Assembly (NCBI RefSeq): GCF_008642355.1
Contig: NZ_CP029193.1
Coordinates: forward strand, 7,954,485-8,018,484
DNA from: Streptomyces venezuelae
GTDB taxonomy: Bacteria; Actinomycetota; Actinomycetes; Streptomycetales; Streptomycetaceae
Direction: 5' to 3'
Length of the DNA stretch: 64,000 bases
Below the pieces are notes generated by a model, which made no database searches, was not told the DNA's origin, and saw only the letters and a list, made by a program, of their open reading frames with translations. A program made the translations under genes and the position numbers. This document shows positions 44,924 through 64,000 of this stretch, one piece after another. Every line of letters starts with the position of its first letter. The stretch's first letter is position 1.

Positions 44924-45148
44924 GATATCCAGAGGCGGGCCGTGCTCCGCTGCGGGGACGGTCCGGTGTGACGCATTCCGTTTGCCTCCCCGCCGGCCTC
45001 CGTGCCGTGGCCACCTCGGCGGGTGTGCGGGGGGCGGGGCGGGGGCGGTGGGGGCCGCTTTGGCCGGAAGGCGGGGGTTCCGTTCCGGCTCTCCGGCGGG
45101 TGGGGCGGGGAGGCGGTGGCGGGGAACATGCCCGTGACATTAGCCCCG

Positions 45149-45174
45149 TTAAAAACCGTACGAGCGGTTTTTAA
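45149..45174. promoter_or_regulatory. Receptor operator, perfect palindrome (site 2)
   Basis: Perfect 10-bp arms TTAAAAACCG and CGGTTTTTAA with a 6-base centre contain the AAACC-N7-CGGTTT pattern at 45153-45170. It is the most symmetric of the three sites. It lies between TetR (2) on the minus strand and the acyl-CoA carboxylase genes on the plus strand and could control either. Confidence 0.8.
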
Positions 45175-46111: not shown

Positions 46112-46324
46112 GTGGACGCTGCCGAACGTAGGACTGCCCTGCTCAGGATCGAGCGGGGGCAGGCCAGCGACGAAGAGCTCGCCGCTGTTGCCGTGACACT
46201 GTTCTCGCTGGCCGCCGGCCGGCCGCCGGGCGGGGACCGGATACCGCACGTACCGCGCCGGGTCGCGGCCTGGCGTCCGCCGGAGCCCGCCCGGGCCTAC
46301 CGGGCACCGCACAGCTGGCGCTGA
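46112..46324 (+). CDS. accE: Acyl-CoA carboxylase epsilon subunit
   Basis: This 70-residue protein has the small AccE pattern: RIERGQASDEELAAVAVTLFSLAA near the N-terminus and a Trp/Tyr-containing basic ending (AAWRPPEP...APHSWR). Epsilon subunits stabilise the actinobacterial carboxyltransferase beta subunit in acetyl- or propionyl-CoA carboxylase. The GTG start follows GGGGAGG. The partner beta-subunit gene lies almost 900 bases further on, across a repeat tract, instead of being adjacent as usual. Confidence 0.85.
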   Translation: MDAAERRTALLRIERGQASDEELAAVAVTLFSLAAGRPPGGDRIPHVPRRVAAWRPPEPARAYRAPHSWR

Positions 46325-47207
46325 CACACACGCACACGTCGCCACCCGGTCCGGACGCCCGGCGCCCTGCCCCTTGCCGGGGGGTGCCCGAACCCGGACC
46401 GGCGCGTGACCGGAGACCGGCAACGGGAGCTGGACCGGGACCGGCGTTGTGTCCGGGCCCGGACCGGGGAAGTGGCCTCGGGGCCAGACACCACCGGGGC
46501 CCGGCACCACAGCTGGATCCGGCACCGCAGCAGGGCCGGGCACCAGAGCCGCGCCGGGAAACAGACCCGGAAACAGAGCGCGGCCCGGGCAGCAGGGTTG
46601 GGCCCGGGAAGAGAGCGGTCCACAGCCGGGCCCGGGAAGGGAGCGGCCCGGCAAGAGTGCCGGGCCCGGCACCGGAGTCGGGTCCGGCAGCAGAGCGGGC
46701 CCGGGAACAGCGGGGCCGGGCAGCAGGGTTGGGCCCGGCAGTCAGAGCTGGGTCCGGCAGTAGGGCGGGGCCGGTCAAGAGAGCCGGGCCCGGGGACAGG
46801 GCCGGGCCCGGCATGGAGTCGGGTCCGGCAGCAGAGCGGGCCCGGGAACGGGCCATCCGCCCCCCCGGGGAATGGGGGCTGGGTCCGGGGGCCGGGGGAA
46901 ACCGGCTCCCGGGCCGGGCCGCCCGCCCCCGGCTCGGCAGGGGCGGGCCCCGGTCCCTGCTACCAGGGGCCCAGGCCCCAGGCCTCGGGTCCCAGGCCTC
47001 GGGTCCCGGTGTGCCGGGGCCGGGGATCCGGCATCCGGGTGTCCCGGGGGCTTGGTCCTTGCGGGGTGCGGGGTGCGGGGTGATGGGACATGTCCTGGAT
47101 GTGAGATCCGCTGCAGTGGGTCTGGTCCGTGGCTGCGGTCCGGTCCGGCCGGGTGCCGGGCCCGCCGCGGGCGGGGCCGGGCCGATTCGAGGAGAAAGGG
47201 GACCGTC
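46325..47207. repeat. Degenerate GGGCCCGG/CAGAG repeat tract
   Basis: About 35-40 imperfect copies of a 20-24 base unit (GGGCCCGGCA plus CCAGAGC-like words) occupy 46400-46900. One longer word, GCAGCAGAGCGGGCCCGGGA, recurs exactly about 141 bases apart (46687 and 46828 regions). The following 300 bases are GC-rich with GGTCCCAGGCCTC duplications. No gene is supported, and the tract separates accE from its beta subunit. Confidence 0.65.
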
Positions 47208-48800
<1,593 letters not shown>

Positions 48801-49763
48801 CCCCCGCCCCGCCCGGGGCCGCCCGCCCGGCCCGGGGCCGTCCGCTCGGGCCCGCGCGGTGCGCGCGGTGCGCGCGGTGCGGCGCCGTGGCTCTCCCGGC
48901 CCTGCCAGGGGTACGCGGGGCAGGGCGCCGCCGCCCCCGGCCCCGCGCCCGCGGGGCCCCGCCCCCGCCCCCGGCCCCCGCCCGGCGTCCGGCCGCCCGG
49001 AACCACCCGGCCCGCCCCGCGGCCCGGGAACCGGGGACCGGGAACTGGGGGCCGGGGTGAAGTCCCGTATGTCAGCCGCGCGTCCGCCGCAGTCGAGGGG
49101 CCGCGCTCCCCCCCCACCCCCCTCAGGCCCTCGCCTCCGGCAGGGCAGGACTCCAAGGAACGGATTGCAGGGGACTCCGGGCCGCCTCGCGGGGCCCGGG
49201 GGCGGACGGGTCGGGACCTGAGGGTCTGGGGGAGGGGAGGGGGAGCTGCGGGCTGCCCCGGCCACCGCAACGCCGGCCGCCAACCAGCAACTGCCGGCCG
49301 CCCACCACTGGCGGCCACCAGCCGCCGGGCCGGCAGCCCGTACCGGGTGGCCGTAACGTCGGCTGCCTGACCGGCAGTCGGCAACCACAACGCCGGCCGC
49401 CCGCCGCCGTAACGTCAACTGTCCACCAGCCGCCGACCGGCAACCGTCAGCGGGCAGCCGCCACGCAGCAACTGCCAGCAGGCAACTGCCCACCCCCAGC
49501 CACCCGCCACCAACCGCTGTCCGGCAGCCGCCAGTCAGCAGCAGCCAACCGCCAACCGGCCACCGCCCACCCCGAATCGGCAGTCGCCGACGGGCAGCTG
49601 CCAACCGGTAGTCGTCAGTCCGCAGTCGGCTGCGGCGGGCAGCCGTCTGGGCTGGGGCGGGAGTCGGCTTACGGTGGGCGGCGGCCGCCCCGCCTCCGCC
49701 ATGGGGGGCGCGGGCCGGCCTGCCGGAGGTGCCCGTGTCCGTGCCCAGTCCAGGAGAGCCACG
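48801..49763. repeat. Gap of C/G-rich repeats including a 9-bp tandem and a CAACTGCC family
   Basis: A 9-bp unit GTGCGCGCG is tandemly repeated near 48856-48884. From about 49255 to 49640 the + strand consists of a degenerate family built on GCAACTGCC, GGCCGCCCACC and CAGCCGCCA words of roughly 20-30 bases. No gene is supported. The right edge contains the promoter of the third TetR gene. Confidence 0.6.
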
Positions 49764-50495
49764 ATGGTGCAGCAGGAACGTGCCGCGCGCACGCGGGAGT
49801 CACTGATGCGGGCGGCCGCCGAGGTGTTTGCCGAGGAAGGCTTCGTACCGGCCACGCTGGGCACCATCAGCCGGCGGGCCGGGGTCAGCACCGGCGCCCT
49901 GCACTTCCACTTCGAGAACAAACAGGCCCTGGCCCGCGCCGTGGAGGCGGCCTCGCTGGCCACCTTGCACCGCATCACCCGCCAGGCCGAGGAACACCAC
50001 AGCAGCCCGCTGCCGCGTCTGGCCGCGGCCGGGAACGCCCTGCTGCACGCCCTGGAACAGGACATCGTGGTACGCGCCGGGTTCCAGCTGGTGGGCCCCG
50101 CCCCCTGGCGCACCGACCCGCTGGACCTGCGCGGCGCCTGGCAGCGCTGGGTCGAGACGCTGCTGCACACCGCCCGCCGCCAGGGCGCCCTGGCCGGCGG
50201 CGTCAGCCCGGCCGCCGCGGCGGCAGCCGTCGTCGCGGCCACCGTCGGTTTCGCCGCGCTGGGCCGCACCGACCCCCGGTGGCTCTCCCCGCGCACCCTG
50301 GCCCAGTACTGGGACCTCCTGCTGCCCCGCCTCACCCCCCACCCCGCCACGCCCCCTGCCCCCGCCACGCCCCCTGCCCCCGCCGCTCCCACTGCCCCCG
50401 CCGCCCCGGGCGCCCCGGGCGTCCGGGAGGGCCGAAGCGGCCCCGGCGGCCGGGGCGCCGCCCCGCACGGCCCCCGCCGCCCCCGGCGCCCGTAA
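49764..50495 (+). CDS. GBL-receptor-family TetR regulator (3)
   Basis: This 243-residue receptor-family protein opens VQQERAARTRESLMRAAAEVFAEEG and has VSTGALHFHFENKQALARAV. Its ligand domain shares DIVVRAGF and WLSPRTLAQYWDLLLPRL with TetR (2), marking the two as close paralogues. The last ~45 residues are a Pro/Ala/Thr repeat (TPPAPATPPAPAAPT) and an Arg/Gly tail absent from normal members. GGAGAG precedes the ATG. It lies upstream of the two SARP genes and probably helps control them. Confidence 0.85.
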   Translation: MVQQERAARTRESLMRAAAEVFAEEGFVPATLGTISRRAGVSTGALHFHFENKQALARAVEAASLATLHRITRQAEEHHSSPLPRLAAAGNALLHALEQDIVVRAGFQLVGPAPWRTDPLDLRGAWQRWVETLLHTARRQGALAGGVSPAAAAAAVVAATVGFAALGRTDPRWLSPRTLAQYWDLLLPRLTPHPATPPAPATPPAPAAPTAPAAPGAPGVREGRSGPGGRGAAPHGPRRPRRP

Positions 50496-51012
50496 CCCCC
50501 GGAGGCTCCCCGCCCCCCCCGGGGCGCTCCCTGGCGTGACGGCGGCCCGCACCGGCACATCCCGTGCGGGCCCGCCCCCCGGGGCGACCGGAAGTCACGG
50601 CGTCCACGGCGTCCCGGAGGGGGCCGGGGAATCCCGGGCGTCCGGGCCCCGAGGGTGCTCTCCCGGGCACGGCACTCCGGAAGCCACTCCGCGCCCCGCC
50701 TCCCTCACTCGCCCCGCCCGCCCCCGCCCGCCCCCGCCCGGCCCTGCCCGGCCCTGCCCGGTGGAGCCCGCGTGGACGCCGGACCGTCCCCGGGCGGGGC
50801 ACCGGAGGTGCCCTTCCGGGCCCCGGAACCCCCTCCCAGACCCTCCGGAAACCACCCCCTCAGACCCCGCAATTGCCCCTTCCTAACCCCGGAACCGCCC
50901 CCGCAGGGCACCAGGCCCGCCCCCACGGCCCCCGGGCGGCCCCGGCCCCCTGCCCGGGTCCCGTCAAGTCCCCGTGAAACCACGGGACTTCAGCCGCTGT
51001 TAGACCCAACGT

Positions 51013-51036
51013 AAAACAGCGGGCACCCGCTGTTTT
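51013..51036. terminator. Hairpin AAAACAGCGGG/CCCGCTGTTTT
   Basis: Perfect 11-bp arms with a 2-base spacer end in TTTT on the + strand and in TTTT on the minus strand as well. It lies about 520 bases after TetR (3), so it could terminate that transcript. Its symmetry also allows an operator role. Confidence 0.55.
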
Positions 51037-51133
51037 GCCGTCCCGGCCAGGCCCAGGGGGTCATTCCGCCCGTGCCGGATCGGCCACCCGCGGCCGGAAC
51101 CCGCCGGTCCATACCCGCGTGACCTGCCCCTTC

Positions 51134-51151
51134 CTCAAGATCCACTCAAGA
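51134..51151. promoter_or_regulatory. Direct heptamer repeat CTCAAGA, 11-bp period (SARP-site-like)
   Basis: CTCAAGA occurs twice with a 4-base spacer, exactly one helical turn apart. SARP activators bind such heptamer direct repeats with 11-bp periodicity upstream of the -10 element. The repeats lie about 65 bases before the TTGACA of the first SARP promoter; a partner -10 is not obvious. Confidence 0.4.
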
Positions 51152-51193
51152 AATGGCAGGCAGATCACCTGAAGTGGACTCCAGCGCAACTAG

Positions 51194-51211
51194 AAACCAA
51201 CTACGCGGTTT
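51194..51211. promoter_or_regulatory. Receptor operator AAACC-N7-CGGTTT (site 3) before SARP 1
   Basis: The site reads AAACCAACTACGCGGTTT and ends 4 bases before a TTGACA -35 hexamer. It matches site 1 except for three central bases. Receptor binding here should block RNA polymerase, and ligand release should switch the SARP on. Confidence 0.75.
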
Positions 51212-51215
51212 TGTA

Positions 51216-51244
51216 TTGACAGGGCTCCGCGAATCTATTTGAAT
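51216..51244 (+). promoter_or_regulatory. SARP 1 promoter (TTGACA - 17 - TTGAAT)
   Basis: A consensus -35 TTGACA (51216-51221) and a -10-like TTGAAT (51239-51244) are separated by 17 bases. The start codon of the first SARP lies 75 bases downstream. The adjacent operator suggests repression by a GBL-family receptor. Confidence 0.6.
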
Positions 51245-51318
51245 CTGGGTGCGGTAAGGGGATCGGCTCCGCGAGCGGCTTCGACGCGAGCGGCAACAAC
51301 CACCTTCAGGGGGACGCT

Positions 51319-52281
51319 GTGGACATCGAGGTACTCGGCGCACTGGCGGTGCGGGAAAATGGCCTGTCCGTCACGCCCACGGCCCCCAAGCCCCGGCAGG
51401 TGCTGGCGCTGCTGGCGCTGCACGCCGACCGGATGGTGCCGGTGTCCGCCCTGACCGAGGAGCTGTGGGGCGCCGCCCCGCCGCGCAGCGCCCGCACCAC
51501 CTTGCAGACCTACGTCCTGCAGCTGCGCGAGCTGATCGCCGCCGCGCTGGAGCGCGACAGCGCCCCGGACACCGCGCCGGGCACCCCCGCCGCGCCGGGC
51601 GCCCCGGGCGGGGGGCGCAGTGCCAAGGACGTGCTGGTGACGATGCCCGGCGGGTACCTGCTGTGCAGCGGCGGCGGCACCAGCGACGTGCGGACCTTCG
51701 AGCGGCTGGCGGGCGCCGGCTACCGGGCCATGGACGCCGGGGACTGCGCCGGCGCGGCCCGCCAGCTGCGTGAGGCGCTGGCCCTGTGGTCGGGCACCGC
51801 CTTCGCCGACGTGCAGGCCGGCCCGCAGCTGCAGATGGAGATCAAGCGCCTGGACGAGAGCCGGCTGTGCGCGCTGGACCGGCGCATCGAGGCCGACCTG
51901 CGCCTGGGCCGCCACCGCGAGCTGCTGGCCGAACTGACCGTGCTGGTCAACGGCTACCGCACCCACGAGAGCCTGCACGCCCAGTACATGCTGGCCCTGC
52001 ACCGCTCCGGCCGGCGCGGCGAGGCGCTGGACGCCTACCAGCGGCTGCGCACCACCCTGGTGCACGAGCTGGGCCTGGAGCCCTCGGCCCGGCTGCGGCG
52101 CCTGCAGCGCTCCATCCTGACCGCCGGCCACGACCTGGCCGCCCCCGCCCCCGTCCCGGCCCCCGCCGCGGCGGGGGCCGGCGCTGCCGCCGCCCCCGGG
52201 GCCCCGGCCCCGGCCCCGGGGGCGGGTGCGGCGGCTCCGGCGCCCCCGGCCGTGAAGGTACGGCTGGTGCCCACCGGCTGA
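51319..52281 (+). CDS. SARP pathway activator (1)
   Basis: This 320-residue Streptomyces antibiotic regulatory protein has an OmpR-like winged helix (residues about 1-95: KPRQVLALLALHADRMVPVS; RTTLQTYVLQLRELI). A bacterial transcriptional activation domain follows (about 110-260: YRAMDAGDCAGAARQLREAL; ALHRSGRRGEALDAYQRLR), then a Pro/Ala/Gly tail of about 50 residues. GTG start after AGGGGGA. Its promoter carries a receptor operator, so it is probably the node that turns the signal into pathway activation. Confidence 0.9.
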   Translation: MDIEVLGALAVRENGLSVTPTAPKPRQVLALLALHADRMVPVSALTEELWGAAPPRSARTTLQTYVLQLRELIAAALERDSAPDTAPGTPAAPGAPGGGRSAKDVLVTMPGGYLLCSGGGTSDVRTFERLAGAGYRAMDAGDCAGAARQLREALALWSGTAFADVQAGPQLQMEIKRLDESRLCALDRRIEADLRLGRHRELLAELTVLVNGYRTHESLHAQYMLALHRSGRRGEALDAYQRLRTTLVHELGLEPSARLRRLQRSILTAGHDLAAPAPVPAPAAAGAGAAAAPGAPAPAPGAGAAAPAPPAVKVRLVPTG

Positions 52282-52981
52282 CCCCCCCCGCGGGGCCGGC
52301 GCCCGGCCGGCAGCGGGCGGCCCCCGCCCGTCCGCCCCGCCCCTTCGGGCCGGCCCCCTGCCGCCTGCCCTTCCCCTTCTTCCCCACGCACTCGCCCGCC
52401 GCGAGATCTGCGGCGGGCGAGCCGCGTGGAGAGCGCGTGCGCCGCCCCCACCGGCCACGCCGTGCACCACCGCGTACCACCGCCGGCTGGCGCGCCCCAC
52501 CGCGCAGCGGGCCCGTGCACCCGTGCACCGCACGGCATGCACGGCAGCTGGAACCGTTCACGGACGTGTAAAGGACTTCGAGGAGCGAGGGGGAGGGCGG
52601 GCGGGTGGTGCGCGACAACGTTTCCTTGCCGGCCGCACGGACTTCACCCCGGGCCAGGCGCACCTGGCCCGCGCCGCCTACCGTGCAACCCGCAGGCACC
52701 GCACGGCGCCTGACGCCGCCTCACCCGGCCCGGCCCCGGCACGCGGACCGCACCCCGCGCCGGCCGGCCCCCCAGCCCCAGCCCGAGCCCCAGCCCCTGC
52801 CCCAGTCCCTGTTCCGGTTCGGGTTCTGGTTCCGGCTCCTGTCCCGGTTCCGGTTCCTGGTGCACCACCGGGGCCCGGTGGCCCGTACGGCGAAAGGAGG
52901 ACGCCCCGCACCCGACACGAGAGCGCCCGCGGCGACGGAATGCAGTCAAGACACACACTCGACGAAGTACGGAGAACACCC
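52282..52981. other. Gap between the two SARP genes
   Basis: This 700-base gap is C-rich on the + strand. Between about 52800 and 52865 runs a degenerate GGTTC(C/T) hexamer repeat (TTCCGGTTCGGGTTCTGGTT-like). A short AT-richer segment near 52555-52580 could hold a promoter. No gene is supported. Confidence 0.5.
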
Positions 52982-53803
52982 ATGAAGATTCAGGTTCTGG
53001 GTCCGTTGAGCGCCGAGGTCAACGGGGGATCGATTGTTCCGACGGCACGCAAGCCGCGGCAGATCTTGTCCCTCTTTGCCCTCTATCCCGGACAGGTCAT
53101 GCCTGTTCCCACGCTCATGGAGGAACTCTGGGGCACCGAACCGCCCCAGAGCGCGCTGACCACCCTGCAGACCTACATCCTCCAGCTGCGCCGGCACCTG
53201 GGCACCGCACTGGGGCCCGGCACCCCCGGCACCGCCAAGGAGGTCCTGGCCACCCGGCACGGCGGCTATCTGATGCAGATACCCCCCGAGGGGGTGGACG
53301 TGCACGAGTACGACCGCCTGGCCACCGAGGGCCGTACCGCCTTCGAGAACGGCGACGACGCCACCGCCGCCGACCGCTTCCGCCAGGCCCTGGCGCTGTG
53401 GCGCGGGCCCGCGCTGGTGGACGTGCGGGTGGGCCCCATCCTGGAGATCGAGGTCATGCGGCTGGAGGAGTCCCGCCTGGGCACCGTGGAGCGGCGCATC
53501 GACGCCGACCTGCGCCTTGGCCGGCACTCCGAGCTCATCGCCGAGCTCACCGAACTGACCGCGCGCTACCCCCAGCACGAGGGGCTGCACTCGCAGGCCA
53601 TGGTGGCGCTGTACCGCTCGGGGCGGCAGGCCTCGGCCCTGGAGATCTACCGCAAGCTGCGCATCCGCATGATCGAAGGACTGGGGGTGGAGCCCTCCCC
53701 GCAGGTGCAGCGGCTGCACCAGGCGATGCTGGCCGTCGACCCCCAGCTGGACGTCACGGCCGGACCGCGGCGCACCTCCACGTTCGACCTCTACGCGGCC
53801 TGA
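52982..53803 (+). CDS. SARP pathway activator (2)
   Basis: This 273-residue SARP of the ActII-ORF4/RedD size class has an N-terminal winged helix (MKIQVLGPLSAEVNGGS; KPRQILSLFALYPGQVMPV; LTTLQTYILQLRRHL). Its activation domain contains FENGDDATAADRFRQALALW and VALYRSGRQASALEIYRKLR. GGAGA precedes the ATG by 7 bases. It is a paralogue of the first SARP without the Pro-rich tail and is closest to the biosynthetic genes, so it may be the final activator, as in SrrY/SrrZ-type cascades. Confidence 0.9.
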   Translation: MKIQVLGPLSAEVNGGSIVPTARKPRQILSLFALYPGQVMPVPTLMEELWGTEPPQSALTTLQTYILQLRRHLGTALGPGTPGTAKEVLATRHGGYLMQIPPEGVDVHEYDRLATEGRTAFENGDDATAADRFRQALALWRGPALVDVRVGPILEIEVMRLEESRLGTVERRIDADLRLGRHSELIAELTELTARYPQHEGLHSQAMVALYRSGRQASALEIYRKLRIRMIEGLGVEPSPQVQRLHQAMLAVDPQLDVTAGPRRTSTFDLYAA

Positions 53804-55240
53804 ACCACCCGGCACCGGGCGGCGGACACCGGCACCCCGGGCACCTGGCACCGGGTGGCAGGGGCCGGGCACCTGGCCACCGGCGGCCCGGTGCCCGGCC
53901 CCTTGGCCACAGGCCGGCCGGCAGCCGGGCATCCGGCCCGCGCCGGGCCCCGGCCGCCCGGCGCGGGCCGTCCGGCTCCCGGCTGTCTGGCCAGGTCCGG
54001 GCGCTGTCCGGCCGTCCGGCCCACCCGCCTGATCGCCGGCCGCCGGCCGCCGGCCGCCGGCCGCCGGTTGCCGGTTGCCGGTCTCGGCTCACGGTGCCCG
54101 GCCAGGGCTCCGGCCGTTCCGTCTGGTCGCCGGCCGTCCTGTCGTCCTGGCTGTCGGTCTTTCACTTTCGGTCGTCTGGTGCGGGGCCAGTGGGTGACGG
54201 GCCGCTGGGCCTGGGCTGCCAGGGTTGTCTGGCCGGCGGCCGTCCGCCTTGGGCTGTCCGGCCGCCGGTTGACCGGCTCCCGGACGGCCGGGCAGGCCCA
54301 GTTGGGTCCAGGGCGTTCCGGCAGCACGGCGGGCGTGCGTGCCAGACGGCGGCCCTCCGGCCGGGGCCAGGACACAGGGCCTGACGTTCGGCTCGGGACG
54401 CCCGGTGGCCGGCTGTCCAATCGCCGGCTGTCCGGCTTCCGGCCGGTCGGCCGAGGCTGCTTGGCCGACCGGCTGTCCGGCCACGGCCGCTGCTTCGTCC
54501 GCTCGGGCCACAGTCACCGGCCCCCGGCTACCGGCTGTCCGGCTGCGGACACCTAATCGGCGCTCGTCCGCCTGCCCGCCGTCGGGCCACGGCCACCTGG
54601 CCACTAGCCCTTTGACCACTGGCCGTCCGCCTGCCGGCCGTCCGGCCACGGCCGCCCGGTCACCACGAGTCCGGCCCCTGGCTGTCGGGCTTTGGCCGTC
54701 TGGGCACCAGCTCCCTTTTCGGTTACGGCCATCTGGTCACCACCCGCCCGACCGCGCCCGCTATCCGGGTACGGCCCCCGGCGCCCGGCGGCCACGCCAC
54801 CGGGCATCCAGCCACCCCGCACCACCCGGGCCGCACCACCGGGGGGCCGCACCACCGGGGCGCCCAGCCCCGTGCAGCACCCGCGCCGGGCGCCCGCTGC
54901 CCGCCTGCGGTGCCCGGTCACGCGGGCGGGTCCCGGGCCGCGGCGCGGGCCGCAGCACCAAGCAGTACCAAAGGGGCTGGGGCTGGGGCGGGCCCCGTCT
55001 TCGGTTCGGTGCGCGTGCCCGGCGCGGGACGAGGCGGACTCGAGCCGTCTGCGGGCACGCGTCGAGCCGGATGGGGCACACTGCACAGACCACCGGCCCC
55101 ACTCCGGACGCGCTCCACCCCGAACCTGCCTGCCCGTCACCGGGCCCCGGCCCCGACCCGCCGCGTTGCACCACCCGGCCCGGTCCGGCCGGACTTGCCA
55201 CGACCAGTCGCGTGCACAACGCGAGAGAAAGGGGGGCCCG
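53804..55240. repeat. 1.4-kb CCGGC/GTCCGG repeat tract before the aromatase gene
   Basis: The + strand from 53.8 to about 54.75 kb is built from short words CCGGC, GTCCGG, GGCCGCCGG (a perfect GGCCGCCGGCC run lies near 54038-54065), CCGGCTGTCC and CGGCCACGGCC. Unit lengths are irregular at roughly 12-25 bases. From 54.75 to 55.2 kb the sequence is C-rich without clear repeats. All open frames are Arg/Pro/Gly/Ala low-complexity. No gene is supported. Confidence 0.6.
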
Positions 55241-56200
55241 GTGCCCGGCGAGCGCATCCACCGGCTGTCGCACACGCGGGAGGTGGCCGCACCCGCCTCC
55301 ACCCTCTACGCGCTGATCGCGGACCCCGAACGCTGGCCGCTCTACCTGCCGCGCAACATCTACGCCCAGCGCCTGGACTTCGACGGCGTCCACGAACGCG
55401 TGAGGGTGTGGGCACTGGCCGAGGGCCAGATCGTCTCCTGGACCGCCCACCGCACCCAGGACCCCGTGCGCCGCCAGATCACCTTCCGCCAGGACCTGCT
55501 CATGGAGCCCGCCACCTCGATGGCCGGCCGCTGGAGCGTGCAGCCGCTGGCGCCCGGCCGCTGCCGGGTGACCCTGGAACACGAGTTCACCGCCGCCCCC
55601 GACCGGCCCCAGGACGCCATCTGGCTCGCCCAGGTCACCACCGACAACACCCGCTCCACCCTGCGCAGCCTGCAGTTCCTGGCCGAACGCTGGACCCGCC
55701 TGGACGAACTGGCCCTCTCCTTCGCCGAGTCGATCCGCGTCAACGGGCCCGCCGAACTGGTCTACGGCTTCCTCTACGACGTCGCCGACTGGCCCGGCCA
55801 GCTCCCGCACGTGCGCCGGGCCGCCCTGGAAGAACCCCACCTGGGCATCCAGAAAGTCGCCCTGGAACTCACCGCCGCCGACGGCGGACCCGCCCGCAAC
55901 GTGGCCGGCATCCGCATCTGCTTCCCGCACGCCGGACGCATCGTGCACAAGGCCACCGTGCCCCGCCCGCTGCTGGCCGCGCACTGCGGCGAATGGTCCG
56001 TGCTGCCCGACGAACGCGGCGTCACAGTGGTCGCCCAGCACCACGCCCTGCTGCGCGAGGACCACATCGAACAGGTCCTGGGCGCCGGCACCACCCTGGC
56101 CGAGGCCCGCCGCCGCATCCGCGCCGACCTCGCCCGCGACAGCCGCCAGACCCTGCAACTGGCCCGCCACCACGCCGAATCCGCCATCCGCGTCCTGTGA
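55241..56200 (+). CDS. Didomain aromatase/cyclase for aromatic polyketides
   Basis: This 319-residue protein consists of two START/SRPBCC helix-grip domains (about residues 8-150 and 165-312), the layout of ActVII/GrhQ/BexL-type didomain aromatase/cyclases. Such enzymes shape the first ring of type II polyketides reduced at C-9. Visible segments are LSHTREVAAPASTLYALIAD-...-WPLYLPRNIYAQ and, in the second half, ESIRVNGPAELVYGFLYDVADWPG and LREDHIEQVLGAG. GAAAGGGGGG precedes the GTG. No type II minimal PKS lies in the window, so its partner genes must be beyond the edge or absent. Confidence 0.85.
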   Translation: MPGERIHRLSHTREVAAPASTLYALIADPERWPLYLPRNIYAQRLDFDGVHERVRVWALAEGQIVSWTAHRTQDPVRRQITFRQDLLMEPATSMAGRWSVQPLAPGRCRVTLEHEFTAAPDRPQDAIWLAQVTTDNTRSTLRSLQFLAERWTRLDELALSFAESIRVNGPAELVYGFLYDVADWPGQLPHVRRAALEEPHLGIQKVALELTAADGGPARNVAGIRICFPHAGRIVHKATVPRPLLAAHCGEWSVLPDERGVTVVAQHHALLREDHIEQVLGAGTTLAEARRRIRADLARDSRQTLQLARHHAESAIRVL

Positions 56201-57086
56201 CCCCGCCGGCCGGCCCCGCCTCCGCCGGCCCGGCTCCCACGGCAAAGCCCCTCCACCACCCGCAGCCCGCCCCGCCCCCTCCCGGGCCGCCCCCCCGCCC
56301 CGCCGGAGGAGAAGGCGGCGCGGACCCGCCCGTACGGCACACCAAGGCGACGCCCCCAGCCGCCCCCGCCCCACCCCGTGGCCGGCGCGAACCCCTGCGG
56401 ACACACCCTCCCCGAAGCCGGAGCCCGGCCCCCGGGCCCGGCACCCCGCAAGGCCCCAGCCCCGGCATGCCCCGCCCGGCACCACGGCCCCCGGATCCCG
56501 CGGCCCCCAAGACGGACCGGGCCCGCGACGCAAGGACCCCAACAGGACACCGCCGCGCGGGTGTTGCGCAGGCCCCGCCACGGGAAGCGACCCCGCCACG
56601 GGAAGCGGCGCGACCCCGGGGGCGCGGGCGCGGCAGCCGGGCCCGGAGACCGCCGCCGACCTGCCGCAGGGGAAGTGCCGGGGCTCAGCGCCTGTGCCAT
56701 GACCCTGGGTCGGATCAGCGGGCGCCGTCTGGTGCGTGCGACCGCAAGGCGCCGGAGCGTCCTGGGCGAGGCCCCCGGGGGCCCGTCAGGCCTGGGGAGG
56801 GGCTGCCTGGGCGGTTCGGCAACGCGGCACGGGCCCCTGGCCTTCCAGGCCTTGGGGGAGTGCGTGCCAGACGGCGACCACCCGGCTTCAGGGATATGAC
56901 ACAGCCTCTGGGCCGCCAGGCCTCCGGCGCGCACCCCCTGCGCACCCTGCGCGCACCCCCGGCGGCCCCCGCCCCGCCCCGGGACAGCCGCCAACTCGCC
57001 CCGAAGCAGCCGGAGATGTGGACGCCGCCGCTCCGCGCCGGGGCGGGCGCCCGCCCCGGGATCCGGTTTACACAACACCCCGGTGC

Positions 57087-57102
57087 AGTGACCTACGTCA
57101 CT
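57087..57102. promoter_or_regulatory. Palindrome AGTGAC-CTAC-GTCACT
   Basis: A perfect 6-4-6 inverted repeat lies in a patch of lower GC with CCGGTTTACACAA just upstream. It could be a regulator site or the remnant of a promoter region. It is far from any start codon (1.1 kb before rppA). Confidence 0.4.
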
Positions 57103-57500
57103 TTCGGAGTCCCTTGGTGCGGGGACGGCATCCGTGTCACTATTTCCGCACGACTTCCCTGCCCAAAGCCGGTTCTGGGGCGGTGGGTTGAGTGTCGTAT
57201 CGCTTCCCCACCGCATTTATTCGCCCGTATGCCCTGACGCCCCGCGTCGACGTACGCGGGCCCGGCGGGGATTTTCGCCCTCCTTGATTTCGGCTCCTCG
57301 GCCGGGACGAAATCCGCCCCGGAAAAGGCCGCCCGCGCCTTGGCCGGCACCGGGTCCCGGGCCCGCCGGTATCCCCTCGCTCCGGTTCAAGTCCCGCTGC
57401 CGCGCGGGCCGTCAGCTGCGGGCCGTCTCGGGGCCGGGAAACGGCCGGCGGTGGGGGAGGGGCGGCCCCCAGGGGCGGGGAGAGGGGGCTTTCCCCTACC

Positions 57501-57541
57501 GCCCGGGCATCGACGTACCTGCCCGGGGCATCGACGTACCC
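57501..57541. repeat. Two-copy 21-bp direct repeat
   Basis: GCCCGGGCATCGACGTACCT is followed immediately by GCCCGGGGCATCGACGTACC, giving a two-turn helical spacing of the word CATCGACGTACC. A related GCGTCGACGTACGCGGGCC lies near 57243. Direct repeats at 21-22 bp are compatible with SARP-type binding, but no promoter is evident. Confidence 0.5.
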
Positions 57542-57970
57542 GCTCGGGACCCGCAGCGCCCGCCCGCCACCGGACCCCGGCCGCACCGCGGCGACAAGTC
57601 CGCAGCCCCGCGCCACCCCCTCGCCCGCCAGGGCAGGACCGCGGCGCCGCGCCGTGAACCCGCACCCCAGCACCCCCGCACACCCGGCGCCCCCGCACCC
57701 CCGGCACCTCCCCGTCTCCCCACGCCCTGCCGCGCCCCCAACCCGCGCTTCGTTTCCCCCGGCCCGGCCCGCAGCCCACCGGTCATACGGTCCCCGCCCC
57801 CCCGCAAAGGGGGAGGACAGCACCCCCGCACCCTGCACCCGCTCCAAGCCCCACCCGGCCCCCGGGCCGGTCCGCCCGTGCCTCACCCGTGCCGCCTTCC
57901 CCGGCGCCCGGACCACCACCACCCCTGCCCCCGCGGGGCCCTGACCCGCAGGCCTCCACCGGTCTCGGCA

Positions 57971-58020
57971 AGCCCCAAGGAGCCCCAAGGAGCCTCAAGG
58001 AGCCCCATGGAGCCCCTGAG
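57971..58020. repeat. Five copies of a 10-bp unit AGCCCCAAGG
   Basis: Five consecutive 10-bp units (AGCCCCAAGG twice, then AGCCTCAAGG, AGCCCCATGG, AGCCCCTGAG) end about 220 bases before the rppA start. The 10-bp period matches the helix repeat, so a protein or bending function is possible, though slippage alone explains it. Confidence 0.6.
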
Positions 58021-58241
58021 GAGGCCAAAGGCCGAGGGCTCCCCCCAAGGGCCCGAGCCCGAGCCGCATGAGGGCCCGAGCCCCAAGTGGGGGCAGGCGT
58101 GGTGGTCCGGGGCCGGCGAAGGCGGCGCGGCAGACGCCGTCACAGCAGCTGCCCTCGCCGCCGCCCGCCGGGCGGCACCGGGAGTGCGCGAAAGCTTCCT
58201 CACGTGCAGAAGGCAGACTCTAGAGAAAGTGGATTCCCGAT

Positions 58242-59309
58242 ATGCCTAGGCTATGCAAGCCGTCAGTGCGTGTGCCGGAATACGTCATCACAGCGGAAGA
58301 GACGCTTCAATTCGCCGAGAGGGTCCACGCCGGAAAGCCGCAACTGCCTCTGGCGCTGCGGCTGATCCGCAACACGGGGGTGCTGAAGCGGCATATCGTG
58401 CAGCCCATCGAGCAGACCCTGGCACACCCCGGCCTGACCGAGCGCAACCGCATCTATGAGGCGGAGTCCAAAAAGCGCACCCCCGAGGTCGTCGAGGAGG
58501 CCCTGGCCAACGCCCAGGTCAACGCCCGGGACATTGACGCGATCATCTACGTGTCGTGCACCGGGTTCCTCATGCCCTCGCTGACCGCCTGGCTCATCAA
58601 CACGATGGGCTTTCGCTCCGACACCCGCCAGATCCCCATCGCCCAGCTGGGCTGCGCGGCCGGCGGCGCCGCCATCAACCGGGCCCACGACTTCTGCGTG
58701 GCCCACCCCGGCAGCAACGTCCTGATCGTCTCCTGCGAGCTGTGCTCGCTGTGCTACCAGCCCGACATGGACGACATCGGCTCGCTGCTCTCCGACGGCC
58801 TGTTCGGCGACGCGGTCGCCGCCGCCGTGGTGCGCGGCACCGGCGGCACCGGCATCGAGCTGGAGCGCAACTCCTCCTACCTCATCCCCCACACCGAGGA
58901 CTGGATCTCCTACTCGGTGCGCGACACCGGCTTCCACTTCCAGCTGGACCGCCGGGTGCCCGGCACGATGGAACCGCTCGCCCCGGTGCTGCGCGAGTTC
59001 GCCGCCGGCCACCAGTGGGACGCCTCCAACCTCGACTTCTACATCGTGCACGCCGGCGGCCCGCGGATCCTCAACGACCTGGCCAAGTTCCTGGACGTGG
59101 ACCGCAAGGTGTTCCGCCACAGCTGGTCGACGCTGACCGAGTACGGCAACATCGCCAGCGCGGTCGTCCTGGACGCGGCCCTGCGCCTGTTCGAAGAGGA
59201 CACCCCGATGCCCGACGCCACCGGCCTGATCGCCGGCTTCGGCCCCGGCATCACCGCCGAGATGGCCCTGGGCCGCTGGAACAGCGACACCCCGCCCGCC
59301 GCCGGCTGA
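58242..59309 (+). CDS. rppA: Type III PKS, 1,3,6,8-tetrahydroxynaphthalene synthase
   Basis: This 355-residue chalcone-synthase-like enzyme should condense five malonyl-CoA to THN. The catalytic triad falls at the positions known from Streptomyces coelicolor THN synthase: Cys138 (QLGCAAGG), His270 (YIVHAGGP) and Asn303 (EYGNIAS). The THN-synthase-specific Cys106 (YVSCTGF) is also present. The ATG follows AGAAAGTGGA. It leads an apparent operon with the cupin, aminotransferase and methyltransferase. Confidence 0.95.
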   Translation: MPRLCKPSVRVPEYVITAEETLQFAERVHAGKPQLPLALRLIRNTGVLKRHIVQPIEQTLAHPGLTERNRIYEAESKKRTPEVVEEALANAQVNARDIDAIIYVSCTGFLMPSLTAWLINTMGFRSDTRQIPIAQLGCAAGGAAINRAHDFCVAHPGSNVLIVSCELCSLCYQPDMDDIGSLLSDGLFGDAVAAAVVRGTGGTGIELERNSSYLIPHTEDWISYSVRDTGFHFQLDRRVPGTMEPLAPVLREFAAGHQWDASNLDFYIVHAGGPRILNDLAKFLDVDRKVFRHSWSTLTEYGNIASAVVLDAALRLFEEDTPMPDATGLIAGFGPGITAEMALGRWNSDTPPAAG

Positions 59310-59402
59310 CCCGCCCCCGCCCCGCCCCGCCCCGCCTCGCCCAGGCGCAGCAGGGCCGCGCGCCGCGCGAGATGTCCGCGACAACCGAAGGAAAACCATC
59401 AC

Positions 59403-59966
59403 ATGACTGCCAGCCTGATCGTCCCGCCCGGTGGGGGACGCACGCTGAAGACCCCGGCGCAGGAGGTGACCTTCAAGGCCACCCAGGCGCAGGGCTCCGC
59501 CGTCTCCATCTTCGAGGTGATCGTCCCGCCCGGCTTCGACGTCGGCGCCCACGTCCACCACGAGTCCCAGGAGTTCTTCTACGTCCTTGAGGGCGAGCTG
59601 GACCTGATGTGCTTCGAGCCCACCCGGCGCACCCGCGACACCTGGCACCACTGGCGCTCCGCCAGCGGCGAACGCGTCATCCGCGCCGCCGAGGGCGGCT
59701 GCATGTTCGTGCCGACCGGCACCCCGCACGCCTTCCGCAACGCCACCGACAAACCGGTCAAGATGCTCTTCCAGAGCTTCCCCTCGCCCGACCACGAGCA
59801 GTACTTCGAGGAGATCGCGGAGATCTGGGCACGCGGCACCACCGTCGACCCGGCCGCGGTGGAGGAGATGCGCAAGCGCTACGACGTCGAGGAACTCACC
59901 CCCCTGCGCTACCAGCCCCCCACCGCCACCGCTACCGCTGCGGCACCGCAGCCGCAGGGGACGTGA
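59403..59966 (+). CDS. MomA-like cupin, quinone-forming monooxygenase
   Basis: This 187-residue single-domain cupin has motif 1 HVHHESQEFFYVLEGELDL (His50, His52, His53, Glu57 region) and motif 2 GTPHAFRN. In several Streptomyces a cupin next to rppA (MomA) oxidises THN to the naphthoquinone flaviolin, and position and size here fit that role. The C-terminus is an Ala/Thr/Pro tail. The next start lies 6 bases after the stop, or overlaps it if a GTG is used. Confidence 0.85.
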   Translation: MTASLIVPPGGGRTLKTPAQEVTFKATQAQGSAVSIFEVIVPPGFDVGAHVHHESQEFFYVLEGELDLMCFEPTRRTRDTWHHWRSASGERVIRAAEGGCMFVPTGTPHAFRNATDKPVKMLFQSFPSPDHEQYFEEIAEIWARGTTVDPAAVEEMRKRYDVEELTPLRYQPPTATATAAAPQPQGT

Positions 59967-59971
59967 CCGCC

Positions 59972-61189
59972 ATGACCACCACCACACCCGCCACACCCGC
60001 CACACCAGCCTCTGCCGCCTCTGCTTCCGCCGCGGCGGCTGCCGCCGTGCCGCTGGTGCACGCCAGCCTGGGCGAGCAGGAACTGGCCGCCGTCGCCGAG
60101 GTGTTCGCCTCCGGCTGGCCCGCCGGCCAGGGCCCGCGCGGCAAGGCCCTGGAGGCCCAGCTCGCCCAGCGCTACGCCATGGACGCGGTCGCCCTGAGCA
60201 ACTGCGGCGCCGCCCTGCACGTGGCGCTGCTCGCCCTGGGCGTGCAGCGCGGCGACGAAGTCATCGTCGCCGACTACACCTTCCCCGCCCCCGCCCACGC
60301 GGTGCGCTACCTGGACGCGGTGCCCGTCTTCGCCGACGTACGCCCCGACACCCACACCGTGGACGTCCAGGCCGTCGCCGACCTGATCACCGAACGCACC
60401 ACCGGCATCATCGCGGTCGACACCGTCGGGCTGCCCGCCGACTACCGCGAACTGCAGGCCCTGGCCGACCGGCACGGCCTGTTCCTCATCGAGGACGCCG
60501 CCTGCGCGGTCGGCGCCACCTACCAGGGACGCCAGGCCGGCGCCCTGGCACCGGTGTCCTGCCTGTCCTTCCACGGCCGCAAGGGCGCCACCAGCGGCGA
60601 GGGCGGCGCGCTGCTGGCCGCCGACCCCGCCATCGCCGCCGACGCCCGGCTGCGCTCCTCCTTCGGCATCGGCAGCATCTTCGACCAGTCGAAGATCGTC
60701 GGCCTGCCCATCCCGGAGTTCACCGAGGTCGGCTACAACTTCAAACTCTCCGACATCGCCGCCGCCATCCTGCAGGTCCAGATCGGGCGGATCGACGAAC
60801 TCCTCGCCCGCCGCACCCAGGTCGCCGCCGCCTACGGCGAACTCCTGGCCGACGAGGAACTGGTGACGCTGCCTCAGGTGCCCGCCGACCGCACCCACGC
60901 CTGGCAGTCCTACCTCATCGCCCTGGACGCGCGGGTGGACCGGGCCGCCCTCGCCGCCGACCTGCGCGGCCAGGGCATCGGCTGCGGCCACGGCACCTGG
61001 GCCAGCCACCTGCAGCCCGTCTTCGCCGCCCGCCAGGCCTGCCCCGTCTCGGCCGACCTGTTCGCCCGCCACCTGGCCATCCCCATGCACGCCGAACTCA
61101 GTGCCGACCAGATCGAACGCGTCGTGACGGTGCTGCGCACCGCCCTTCGCACCCACGCGGCCCCCGCGGGCCGGGGAGGAACCGCATGA
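59972..61189 (+). CDS. DegT/DnrJ/EryC1-family aminotransferase of the THN operon
   Basis: This 405-residue PLP enzyme has an Ala/Thr low-complexity start, ALSNCGAALHVALLALG, FLIEDAACAVGATYQG with the PLP-stacking Asp, and SFHGRKGATSGEGG with Lys204 as Schiff-base lysine. GYNFKLSDIAAAI closes the core. It is unusual for such enzymes to follow rppA and a cupin. In naphthoquinone meroterpenoid clusters this combination introduces the amino group of 8-aminoflaviolin, and I infer the same here. The gene overlaps the methyltransferase start by 4 bases. Confidence 0.85.
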   Translation: MTTTTPATPATPASAASASAAAAAAVPLVHASLGEQELAAVAEVFASGWPAGQGPRGKALEAQLAQRYAMDAVALSNCGAALHVALLALGVQRGDEVIVADYTFPAPAHAVRYLDAVPVFADVRPDTHTVDVQAVADLITERTTGIIAVDTVGLPADYRELQALADRHGLFLIEDAACAVGATYQGRQAGALAPVSCLSFHGRKGATSGEGGALLAADPAIAADARLRSSFGIGSIFDQSKIVGLPIPEFTEVGYNFKLSDIAAAILQVQIGRIDELLARRTQVAAAYGELLADEELVTLPQVPADRTHAWQSYLIALDARVDRAALAADLRGQGIGCGHGTWASHLQPVFAARQACPVSADLFARHLAIPMHAELSADQIERVVTVLRTALRTHAAPAGRGGTA

Positions 61190-62256
61190 GCGAGCACCAG
61201 CCCACCACGACCACCCCGCCCACCACCCGGCCCACCGGCTCCGGCCCGGACGCAGGCCCCGGCTCCGGCCCGGATGCCGGGCCGGACACCATCCTGCGGC
61301 TCATCAACGGCTACTGGTCCACCGGCATCCTGGGCGCCGCCGCCGAACACCGGCTGTTCACCCACCTCGAGGACGGCGCCCACGACGCCGCCCAGCTGGC
61401 CGCCCGCGCGCAGATCTCCGAACGCGGCGCCCAGACCCTGCTGGACGGCCTGGTCAGCATCGGCCTGCTCACCCTCGAACACGGCCGCTACCGCAACACC
61501 CCGGCCGCCTCCGCCTACCTGGTCGCCGGCCGGCCCGCCGACCTGTCCGCGATGGCCCGCCTCAAACTCACCCACATGGGCAAGCTGGCCGCCCTGCCCG
61601 AGGTGGTCCGCGCCGGCGGCCCGGTCAGCGACCCCACCACCGAAGTCGCCGACAACCCCCACTGGGGCCAGGTCGTGCCGGCCATCGCCGCCCAGTCGGT
61701 GCCCGCCGCCGCCATCGCCGCCGACGTGCTGGGCCTGTCCGAGGCCGGAGCGCTGTCCATCCTGGACGTCGGCGGCGGCTCGGGCATCTACTCCGCCACC
61801 TGGCTCAAGGCCAACCCCGCCGCCCGCGCCACCCAGCTGGACTGGGAACCCATCAACGCCATCGCCCGCCAACTCCTCGCCGAACGCGGCGTCGCCGACC
61901 GCTTCACCTGCATCGACGGCGACTTCCACACCACCGACTTCGGCACCGGCACCTACGACGTGGCGCTGTACTCCCACATCGCCCACCAGGAAGGCCCCGA
62001 GGACAACATCGCGGTCTTCACCCGCCTCAAGGACGCACTCAAGCCCGGCGGCGCCCTGGTGGTCTGCGACTACGTCGTCGACGACGACCGCTCCGGACCG
62101 CCCTTCCCGCTGCTGTTCGCCTCCGAGATGCTCCTCAAATCCCAGCAGGGCGGCACCTGGCGGCGCGCCGACTACCACGCCTGGCTCACCAAGGCCGGCT
62201 TCAGCGACATCACCTTCCACTCCGCCCCGCCCGCCACCCTGGTCATCGCCCGCTAA
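61186..62256 (+). CDS. O-methyltransferase-type SAM enzyme of the THN operon
   Basis: This 356-residue protein has an N-terminal dimerisation winged helix (about residues 35-115: ILRLINGYWSTGILGAAAEH; GAQTLLDGLVSIGLL). A C-terminal SAM domain follows with motif I ILDVGGGSGIY near residue 195, YDVALYSHIAHQEG and LKPGGALVVCDYVVDDD. The sequence has His in place of the usual HDW active-site word, so it may act as a C- or N-methyltransferase rather than a classical O-methyltransferase. The first ~30 residues are repetitive (GPDAGPGSGPDAGP). Start overlaps the aminotransferase stop. Confidence 0.85.
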   Translation: MSEHQPTTTTPPTTRPTGSGPDAGPGSGPDAGPDTILRLINGYWSTGILGAAAEHRLFTHLEDGAHDAAQLAARAQISERGAQTLLDGLVSIGLLTLEHGRYRNTPAASAYLVAGRPADLSAMARLKLTHMGKLAALPEVVRAGGPVSDPTTEVADNPHWGQVVPAIAAQSVPAAAIAADVLGLSEAGALSILDVGGGSGIYSATWLKANPAARATQLDWEPINAIARQLLAERGVADRFTCIDGDFHTTDFGTGTYDVALYSHIAHQEGPEDNIAVFTRLKDALKPGGALVVCDYVVDDDRSGPPFPLLFASEMLLKSQQGGTWRRADYHAWLTKAGFSDITFHSAPPATLVIAR

Positions 62257-62320
62257 CACCACCGGCGACGCCCGGCATTCAGCACCCGGCATTCAGCACT
62301 CAGAACACGAGGAAACAGCT

Positions 62321-62934
62321 GTGGACCCTGTGAACGTGTCCCGTCATCTACTACAGCGCGACCGGCACCGTGCACGCCCTGGCTCAGGCCGTGGCCGAGG
62401 GTGCGGAGAAGGCGGGCGCCACCGTGCGGGCTGCGCAAGGTCGCCGAGACCGCCCCCGACGCGGCGATCAGCGCCAACCCCGCCTGGGTGGAGCACCGGG
62501 CGGCCACCGCCGATGTCGCCGAGGCCACCCACGACGATCTCGCCTGGGCGGACGCGGTCCTGTTCGGCACCCCCAGCCGGTTCGGCAACCCCGCCAGCCA
62601 GCTGCGCGCCTTCATCGACACCACCGGCCCGCTGTGGTTCGCGGGCAAGATCGCGGGCAAGGTGTTCTCCGCGTTCACCGCCAGCAAACACGCCCACGGC
62701 GGGCAGGAGTCGACGATCCTGGCGCTGTCGAACACCTTCTACCACTGGGGCGGCATCATCGTGCCCCCCGGCTACACCGACCCCATCCAGTTCCAGTCCG
62801 GCAACCCCTACGGCACCTCACACGTCGCGAACGACGGGGCGCCGGGCGAGGTCGCCCTGCAGGCCGCCCGCCACCAGGCACGCCGCGTGGTGGACACCAC
62901 CGCCGCGCTCAAGGCCGGCCGCGCCGCCGCCTGA
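62321..62934 (+). pseudogene. WrbA-like NAD(P)H:quinone oxidoreductase with two frame breaks
   Basis: The flavodoxin-like protein is readable only across frames: VIYYSATGTVHALAQAVAEG after about 62346 in one frame, then LRKVAETAPDAAIS...FGTPSRFGNPASQLRAFID...GTSHVAN from about 62431 in another. The likely original start, GTG 62321 after GAGGAAACAGCT, is in a third frame. Both breaks coincide with G/C homopolymers (CCC at 62340-62342 and GGG at 62428-62430), so each needs one base removed. It is either a decayed gene or two sequencing errors in an otherwise intact gene. It would reduce the quinone product with NAD(P)H. Confidence 0.8.
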
Positions 62935-62970
62935 CCCGCCCCCGCCCTGCCCGGGGGCGGGGGTGGGTGA

Positions 62971-63023
62971 ACCGGCCGGGCCCGCACGGGCTTCGGTCAC
63001 AACCGTGCGGGCCCCCGGCCGGT
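62971..63023 (+). terminator. Terminator after the THN operon
   Basis: Long complementary arms (ACCGGCCGGG with CCCGCACGG on the left, CCGTGCGGG with CCGGCCGGT on the right) flank a 13-base loop, with one small internal asymmetry. It lies 37 bases after the quinone-reductase stop and is preceded by a second GC hairpin. It marks the operon end. Confidence 0.75.
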
Positions 63024-63229
63024 GGCCGGTGGGCGGGGCCGGGGGCGCGGCCGGTCGGCAGACCCGGCCCGAGGGGGCGCCCCCGGCGCCCCCGGTGCGG
63101 CCCGGGGCAGCGACCGCCCGGCCCGGCACGGCCCGGCCCGACGGCGTCCGCCTCGTCCGCCTCACCCTCCGACGACACAGCCCGCGCAATGTGAGCCCGG
63201 CCCGGAAAAAAAAAGCCCCTCCGCCCACT

Positions 63230-63354
63230 GCCCCGGAGGACATCCGCCGCACCGGCACATGCCTCCGGGGGTATCCGCTGCACCGGCACATGCCTCCGGG
63301 GGCATCCGCTGCACCGGCGCATGCCTCCGGGGGGATCCGCTGCACCGGCGCGGC
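63230..63354. repeat. 31-bp tandem repeat, about four copies
   Basis: The unit, beginning GCCTCCGGGGG and ending GCACCGGCGCAT, repeats with starts at 63261, 63292 and 63323 and a degenerate earlier copy. The 31-bp period is not a multiple of three, so it does not reflect a coding repeat. Confidence 0.8.
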
Positions 63355-63552
63355 CGGACCGCCGCACACCCCGGCCCCCGCCCGGCCACCCACCGGCGGG
63401 GGCGCCCGCCCCGCGCTGCAGCCGCCCACCCTCGCCGCCCCGGCCCGGCCAACCACCCGCTCGCTGAGCGGAGTTGGCCCCGCCGGTGTGGCCGACCTGC
63501 TGCACCGCCGGAGCCCGCCTCGCCGCTGTAGCAGTGGGTGCGCCGCACCGCC

Positions 63553-63850
63553 GGGGCTCGCCGGTCGCGCTGCCGTGGCGGGCCGGTGTGCTGCTGGGGG
63601 CTCGTCGGTCGCGCTGCCGTGGCGGGCTGTTGCGCCGCTGGGGCTCGTCGGTCGCGCTGCCGTGGCGGGCTGTTGCGCCGCTGGGGGGCTCATCGGTCCT
63701 GGCGCGGTGGGGCCCCCGTTGTGCCGCCGGGGCTCATCGGCCGCGCCGCTCGGCTGGGTCCGGTGTGCTGCTGGGGCTGTCGGGCGCGGTGCTGCGGCGG
63801 ACCGTTGTGCCGCTGGGGGCTCACCGGTCACGGGCGCTGTGGCGGGTCTC
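63553..63850. repeat. 43-45-bp tandem repeat
   Basis: Units starting GGGGCTCGTCGGTCGCGCTG begin at about 63553, 63597, 63640 and 63685. The first three are nearly identical; later copies (GGGGCTCATCGGCC..., GGGGCTCACCGGTC...) are diverged. The near-identity of the left copies indicates recent expansion. Confidence 0.8.
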
Positions 63851-64000
63851 GCGCCGCTGAGGCCCTCGGCCGCAGCACCGGGGCGGGACCAGCCCACTGC
63901 CCGGAAGACCCCCGCCACACCGTTACGCGGTGGCGGCGGCCTGCCTCGCCACCAGCACCCGCCTCGCCGCCCCGGCCACTCGCTCCCCGGCCACGCCCGC

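Follow-up and report, generated by a model that had tools for sequence, protein, structure and literature searches.

What does the rppA operon close to the right end of Streptomyces venezuelae contig NZ_CP029193.1 make, and does the product keep the nitrogen that one of its enzymes would install? The operon occupies positions 58242..62934 on the + strand of a 64,000-nucleotide stretch (the window; bases 7954485-8018484 of the 8018484-base contig), and the end of the window is the end of the contig. The original prediction had described an amino-naphthoquinone pathway with no prenyltransferase and perhaps a new end product. Our analysis indicated that the operon very probably forms the core of a furaquinocin/furanonaphthoquinone-type meroterpenoid cluster, which neighbours phenazine genes within a terminal inverted repeat. 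The gene content and order were observed here, and the enzyme steps were inferred from published relatives.

The first four genes of the operon are intact open frames, all on the + strand, in the order that had been predicted. The rppA gene (58242..59309; Fur1 type) encodes a 355-aa type III polyketide synthase (PKS; Pfam chalcone/stilbene synthase) that combines the type III PKS fold with Cys106, Cys138, His270, and Asn303, all four of which had been claimed. The best solved relative of RppA was 1u0m (555 bits), which we take to be the S. coelicolor synthase of 1,3,6,8-tetrahydroxynaphthalene (THN), and RppA itself is likely a THN synthase judging by its sequence. The next gene (59403..59966; 187 aa; Pfam cupin; Fur2 type) encodes a cupin that carries the His/Glu metal-site pattern HVHHESQE...PHAFRN; the protein, labelled MomA-like on our assumption, is likely a quinone-forming oxygenase. 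The pyridoxal phosphate (PLP)-dependent aminotransferase (59963..61189; 408 aa; Pfam DegT/DnrJ/EryC1; Fur3 type) has Lys207 as the likely PLP lysine by motif; its start at 59963 was chosen, the listed open reading frame (ORF) beginning further upstream. It is followed by an S-adenosylmethionine (SAM)-dependent methyltransferase (61186..62256; 356 aa; Pfam Methyltransf_2 and Dimerisation; Fur4/MfqH type by position), a likely O-methyltransferase. The cupin stop codon runs into the aminotransferase start, and the aminotransferase stop into the methyltransferase start; thus, coupling of the three genes is plausible. The last gene, a wrbA-type NAD(P)H:quinone oxidoreductase (62322..62934, + strand; Pfam FMN_red), was nearest to the NAD(P)H:quinone oxidoreductases in NCBIfam (126.3 bits, under the cut-off of 141). 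The predicted quinone reductase gene is present, but its reading frame is broken in the window copy (about 62.3-62.93 kb). No likely gene was found from 62935 to the contig end at 64000, 1.07 kb past wrbA.

The cluster runs on beyond this point in a duplicate on the left arm of the same genome. The last 19.75 kb of the window (44247..64000, a feature without strand) recurs inverted at G000:C1:157265-137513; the alignment has 17 gap openings and not one mismatch, and a second rppA copy stands near the opposite contig end. All 17 differences between the arms were gaps, with no substitutions; most sit in short runs of bases, and 12 fell after 62.3 kb, i.e., within 1.7 kb of the contig end; thus, reading frames near the contig end are unreliable. 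The duplication would represent a terminal inverted repeat, the right arm of which apparently lacks its outer ~137 kb in the assembly. The genome G068 also carries an aminotransferase of the rppA-linked type near both ends of its contig.

On the left arm, all genes of the continuation read in the operon's direction (positions on G000:C1; starts are approximate calls, and small unassigned ORFs between genes are omitted). The quinone reductase gene is open there (138581-139192) and is followed by an adenylate-forming ligase (135805-137394) and a set of SAM recycling genes, which stand between the core and prenylation genes: MetK (133695-134909), MetH (128986-132504), methylenetetrahydrofolate reductase (MTHFR; about 128.1-128.9 kb), and S-adenosylhomocysteine hydrolase (SAHH; 126643-128106), all over their NCBIfam cut-offs. 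A PfkB-type kinase, assigned at family level only, lies among them (132501-133442). Further along are a major facilitator superfamily (MFS) efflux protein (123848-125374), a mevalonate kinase over its NCBIfam cut-off (122376-123422), a CreE-like flavin adenine dinucleotide (FAD) enzyme (119628-121601; Pfam NAD_binding_9), a CreD-like lyase (117327-118808), a polyprenyl synthase (114497-115570; polyprenyl_synt), an FAD protein (111328-113721), and a cytochrome b (108940-110667). Two ABBA prenyltransferases of the PTase_Orf2 family, PT1 (107439-108344) and PT2 (105243-106157), flank a second methyltransferase (about 106279-107325). PT1 scored 256.3 bits against EpzP and PT2 scored 230.9 bits against 1zb6, which we take to be NphB. 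Beyond PT2, the left arm encodes PhzB, a class II 3-deoxy-D-arabino-heptulosonate 7-phosphate synthase, and a PhzE-type enzyme, in the same direction. The cluster thus contains, in its left-arm copy, contiguous type III PKS, cupin, and aminotransferase genes together with ABBA prenyltransferases and a prenyl diphosphate synthase. The prenyltransferases lie ~30 kb further along from the operon, and none appeared in the window because the contig ends there. The suggested search of the flanks for prenyltransferase and mevalonate genes was thereby borne out, and the absence of a prenyltransferase was rejected as an effect of the contig end. What looked like a prenyltransferase-free amino-naphthoquinone operon belongs to a supercluster of known kind, truncated where the assembly ends inside the terminal inverted repeat.

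These genes closely match, in named function and in order, the cluster for furaquinocins K and L in Streptomyces sp. Je 1-369, listed in Table 3 of the original report from the type III PKS through the prenyltransferase and methyltransferase (PMC9686526). Orf1-5, 7-12, 15, 16, 18, 19, 22, 25, 26, and 27 of that cluster have counterparts here on this basis: type III PKS, cupin, aminotransferase, methyltransferase, quinone oxidoreductase, acyl-CoA ligase, MetK, carbohydrate kinase, MetH, MTHFR, SAHH, MFS, mevalonate kinase, fur16, fur17, polyprenyl synthetase, cytochrome b, prenyltransferase, and methyltransferase, with PT1 in the position of Orf26 (fur7). The gene content follows the published cluster and, by this analogy, does not point to a new end product, which had been suggested as a possibility.

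The grouping of the operon genes is not a matter of chance. We compared the best 80 of 119 candidate aminotransferase loci, with up to 10 kb on each side. In 39 of them the aminotransferase was 72.5-92.1% identical to that of the window, and in the remaining 41 the identity was 50.0-60.4%. An rppA gene stood near the aminotransferase in 37/39 high-identity loci versus 0/41 low-identity loci, and in the two misses (L021 and L054) the aminotransferase was within 0.8 kb of a contig end. Relatives of the cupin (at least 45% identity; 35/39), the ligase (28/39), and WrbA (12/39) were likewise found in the high-identity loci and in none of the 41 others; a methyltransferase relative (at least 50% identity) was present in 25 of the 39. 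A phylogenetic tree of the aminotransferases (76 rows, including three database proteins and the window) was built after a filter for short, reversed, or interrupted matches, which removed four of the 39 high-identity loci (L026, L041, L054, and L073) and four of the 41 low-identity ones. The 39 high-identity rows of the tree fell on one side of a branch with 100/100 support, recovered in 100% of 200 bootstrap trees. This rppA-linked group included the aminotransferases of strains CL190 (79% identity) and CNH189 (80%), which we take to be naphterpin and merochlorin producers, respectively. The best NCBIfam score of the window aminotransferase (237.6 bits) was under the cut-off of 631, so that no sugar aminotransferase equivalog was assigned, and its place in a fully supported rppA-linked group makes a sugar role unlikely.

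Two further observations concern the spread of these loci. Relatives of the aminotransferase were found on 15 Streptomyces plasmid records, e.g., NZ_CP113912.1 (14 at 74-81% identity and one at 63.8%); thus, the cluster type seems to move between replicons. Among 17 loci longer than 21 kb with an rppA-linked aminotransferase, ten (L023, L027, L032, L038, L040, L041, L043, L045, L053, and L088) lacked any ABBA prenyltransferase match in the 10 kb to either side, and these are possibly variants with another prenyl enzyme or none.

The fate of the amino group is indicated by genes outside the window. The CreD-like lyase scored 668.2 bits against NF052556 (nitrosuccinate lyase; cut-off 650), as expected of the aspartate-nitrosuccinate pathway to nitrous acid. 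The CreE-like protein fell into no NCBIfam family and scored 659.6 bits against 8cp2 ("FAD-binding protein", which we take to be an aspartate N-hydroxylase). Since CreE-like proteins (E up to 1e-150) occurred in 150 of 295 genomes of the genus, drawn evenly, their presence alone is weak evidence, and it is the position inside the cluster that counts. The aminotransferase itself was present in 22 of the 295 genomes, the source genome included. The adenylate-forming ligase was detected in 21 of these 22, and in 20 it shared a contig with the aminotransferase, about 22 kb away at most (distances read by eye); it was on another contig in G152 and was not seen in G081, a 700-contig assembly. Outside the source genome the ligase identity was 59-80%, with six of the 20 close ones at only 59-64%. 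Its second-best NCBIfam match was the 3-aminoavenalumate diazotase AvaA6 (NF058622, 101.5 bits). This co-inheritance of the aminotransferase and a diazotase-like ligase supports the view that the amino group is installed and then removed; together with the nitrous-acid genes, it suggests removal by diazotisation.

In the published pathway order, THN is followed by mompain, transamination, reductive deamination, and pentahydroxynaphthalene, and the diazo-forming enzyme is conserved across the furaquinocin, naphterpin, furanonaphthoquinone, and napyradiomycin clusters (PMC12670698). By analogy, RppA would convert malonyl-CoA to THN, the cupin would oxidise THN to a hydroxynaphthoquinone at the mompain level, and the aminotransferase would yield 8-aminoflaviolin, which is a likely intermediate. 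This part of the original prediction is supported by the rppA-linked group and the published relatives. The CreE-like and CreD-like enzymes would then derive nitrous acid from aspartate, the ligase would use it to diazotise the amino group, and reduction would expel N2 to give 1,2,4,5,7-pentahydroxynaphthalene. The operon methyltransferase may O-methylate and the distal methyltransferase C-methylate the core, and one of the two ABBA prenyltransferases would attach the prenyl group that the polyprenyl synthase supplies. A good candidate for holding the quinones in reduced form is the WrbA-type reductase; this role and the exact product are our own proposals. A prenylated naphthoquinone without nitrogen is the probable end product, and the nitrogen-containing one that had been predicted is unlikely given the CreE/CreD-type genes and the diazotase-like ligase.

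Several points weigh against this interpretation. The pathway was proposed from genes, and the deamination step was taken from two papers that cite the primary work. The right arm appears to be cut, its continuation being taken from the left arm. The likeness to Je 1-369 is one of named function and order, not of sequence, and no counterpart of its Orf6 was seen between wrbA and the ligase in a composition-filtered ORF scan, no homology search having been made for Orf6. The structure search for the cupin gave two weak matches and no close solved relative. The ligase was far under the cut-off of the diazotase family (CreM/AvaA6; 101.5 of 975 bits) and scored higher against a model for acyl-CoA ligases in general (143.3 of 476 bits); its diazotase role therefore rests on linkage and on the papers.

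Among the other explanations, a diazo or hydrazone meroterpenoid, in which the diazo intermediate is trapped rather than reduced, is unlikely. Its model is the acetylhydrazone furaquinocin L of Je 1-369, a strain with a similar gene order, although furaquinocin L was reported alongside furaquinocin K, whose reported positions are nitrogen-free (PMC9686526). The same chromosome arm holds a second CreE/CreD-type pair, which is in keeping with diazo chemistry, but no dedicated trapping enzyme was identified, no systematic search having been made for one. That pair and its surroundings (G000:C1:10229-13701 and about 20.9-43 kb; loci L015-L017) include a lyase of 753.2 bits, over the nitrosuccinate lyase cut-off, together with glutamine-synthetase-like, ketosynthase, ketoreductase, and monooxygenase genes, by appearance presumably a kinamycin-like diazo cluster.

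Quite improbable is an operon that ends in a nitrogen-retaining aminonaphthoquinone. Flaviogeranins B and B1 do retain the 8-amino group (PMC7463872), and 8-aminoflaviolin was detected in several expression strains of the mfq cluster (PMC12814520); however, the CreE/CreD-type genes and the diazotase-like ligase stand in the same cluster, with the ligase close to the aminotransferase in 20 of the 22 genomes, and furaquinocins are the products of the published cluster with the closest gene order (PMC9686526). That the cluster is degenerate and inactive, as the broken wrbA frame and the contig end 1.07 kb later might imply, is very improbable, because the arms differ by gaps alone, mostly in the last 1.7 kb, and the left-arm wrbA is open, with the remaining cluster genes behind it; wrbA was thus disfavoured as a pseudogene. 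A sugar-acting aminotransferase, which the original prediction had held out as one possible refutation, with a glycosylated flaviolin as product is hardly credible: the solved structures closest to the enzyme are those of sugar aminotransferases (ArnB, 189.6 bits), but the identity gap, the rppA linkage, and the tree support described above all disfavour it. Among the scanned neighbours, the PfkB-type kinase is the only member of a sugar/nucleoside family, although sugar genes were not searched for systematically.

The meroterpenoid cluster is accompanied by phenazine genes at two places in the genome. A second wrbA-type gene (G000:C1:98691-99319), 95.7% identical over 633 aligned bases to window positions 62310-62940, adjoins the phenazine genes, so that the two wrbA-type genes stand at opposite ends of the supercluster. 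PF02567 had four matches in the genome, the best of which (G000:C1:6867351-6868154) is a PhzF-family protein adjoined by a PhzG over its cut-off. About 13 kb from this PhzF lies a diphosphomevalonate decarboxylase, with an HMG-CoA (3-hydroxy-3-methylglutaryl-CoA) synthase over its cut-off and an HMG-CoA reductase under its cut-off between them. A prenyltransferase just upstream of these genes, at 6851.7 kb, matched 4ee6 (599.7 bits); 4EE6-8 are EpzP of S. cinnamonensis, the phenazine genes of which are split over two loci (PMC3485228). The two loci also share a 1188-base phenazine-gene block of 99.7% identity (G000:C1:99383-100570 and 6866169-6867356).

It is conceivable, if rather unlikely, that the two wrbA-type reductases supply the two prenyltransferases with reduced aromatic acceptors, and that a limiting naphthoquinone copy leaks the 8-diazo intermediate into N-N products such as furaquinocin L. 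In a ppzT deletion, prenylated phenazine fell from 103.9 to 2.4 when the wrbA-like ppzU was also deleted, going by the table as read (PMC3326630). The same report ascribes the reduction of the prenyl acceptor to PpzZ1/PpzZ2 (PMC3326630); thus, a role of WrbA is only suggested there.

Upstream of the operon, the window encodes a TetR_N protein (44246-44866, - strand) and, on the + strand, an acyl-CoA carboxylase carboxyltransferase subunit (46872..48800), which has an 82% relative beside the G141 cluster and possibly supplies malonyl-CoA. These are followed, also on the + strand, by a TetR-family regulator that is gamma-butyrolactone-receptor-like by appearance (49674..50495; TetR_N), two Streptomyces antibiotic regulatory proteins (SARPs) with BTAD domains (51319..52281, and SARP2 at 52523..53803 with a likely start near 52.98 kb), and an aromatase/cyclase-like polyketide cyclase of the SRPBCC type (54872..56200, domain from about 55199). 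By analogy with MfqF of the mfq cluster, SARP2 is likely the pathway activator. Its relatives (E at most 1e-95) were found in 14 of the 22 aminotransferase-positive genomes, in nine of them no more than about 100 kb from the aminotransferase on its contig. A cyclase relative (at least 41% identity) lay within 3 kb of SARP2 in 8/22, the source genome included, and on the contig of the aminotransferase within 100 kb in 5/22; in G047, the SARP2-cyclase pair was 1.4 Mb from the aminotransferase. Neither the cyclase (35% threshold) nor SARP2 (60% threshold) was found in any of the 80 loci, with a reach of at most 10 kb on each side. A plasmid of KMM 9044 carries SRPBCC, SARP, TetR, and ScbR-family genes about 11-19 kb from the aminotransferase. 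The regulators and aromatase/cyclase next door, considered unusual in the original prediction, are thus present, but their combination is not unique: this neighbourhood recurs in relatives yet does not define the cluster. The window aromatase/cyclase is associated with the operon and may belong to the pathway.

As in Je 1-369, the cluster lies within terminal inverted repeats (160 kb there), with most mevalonate genes elsewhere (PMC9686526); unlike in Je 1-369, a different strain (8.82 Mb versus 8.02 Mb here), a second ABBA prenyltransferase and phenazine genes come next. The mfq cluster of Streptomyces sp. S4.7 requires the SARP MfqF for production, and deletion of MfqH (a proposed O-methyltransferase) or MfqW (a proposed prenyltransferase) abolishes marfuraquinocins; phzF of that strain is in another cluster (PMC12814520). 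The two systems, compared by gene function, share SARP control, two aromatic prenyltransferases, and phenazine genes with phzF in a separate cluster; the mfq products are farnesylated. The gene arrangement of the furanonaphthoquinone I cluster is called identical directly after the SAM-recycling genes of Je 1-369 are described (PMC9686526). S. cinnamonensis DSM 1042, the furanonaphthoquinone I/endophenazine strain, likewise combines meroterpenoid and phenazine genes in one region, and the names Fnq26, Fnq27, and Fnq28 suggest the same prenyltransferase-methyltransferase-prenyltransferase order. It also has a second locus with an EpzP-type enzyme, a comparison drawn from citing papers and not from sequence. 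The present strain thus adds a producer candidate with two chromosomal loci comparable to those of S. cinnamonensis.

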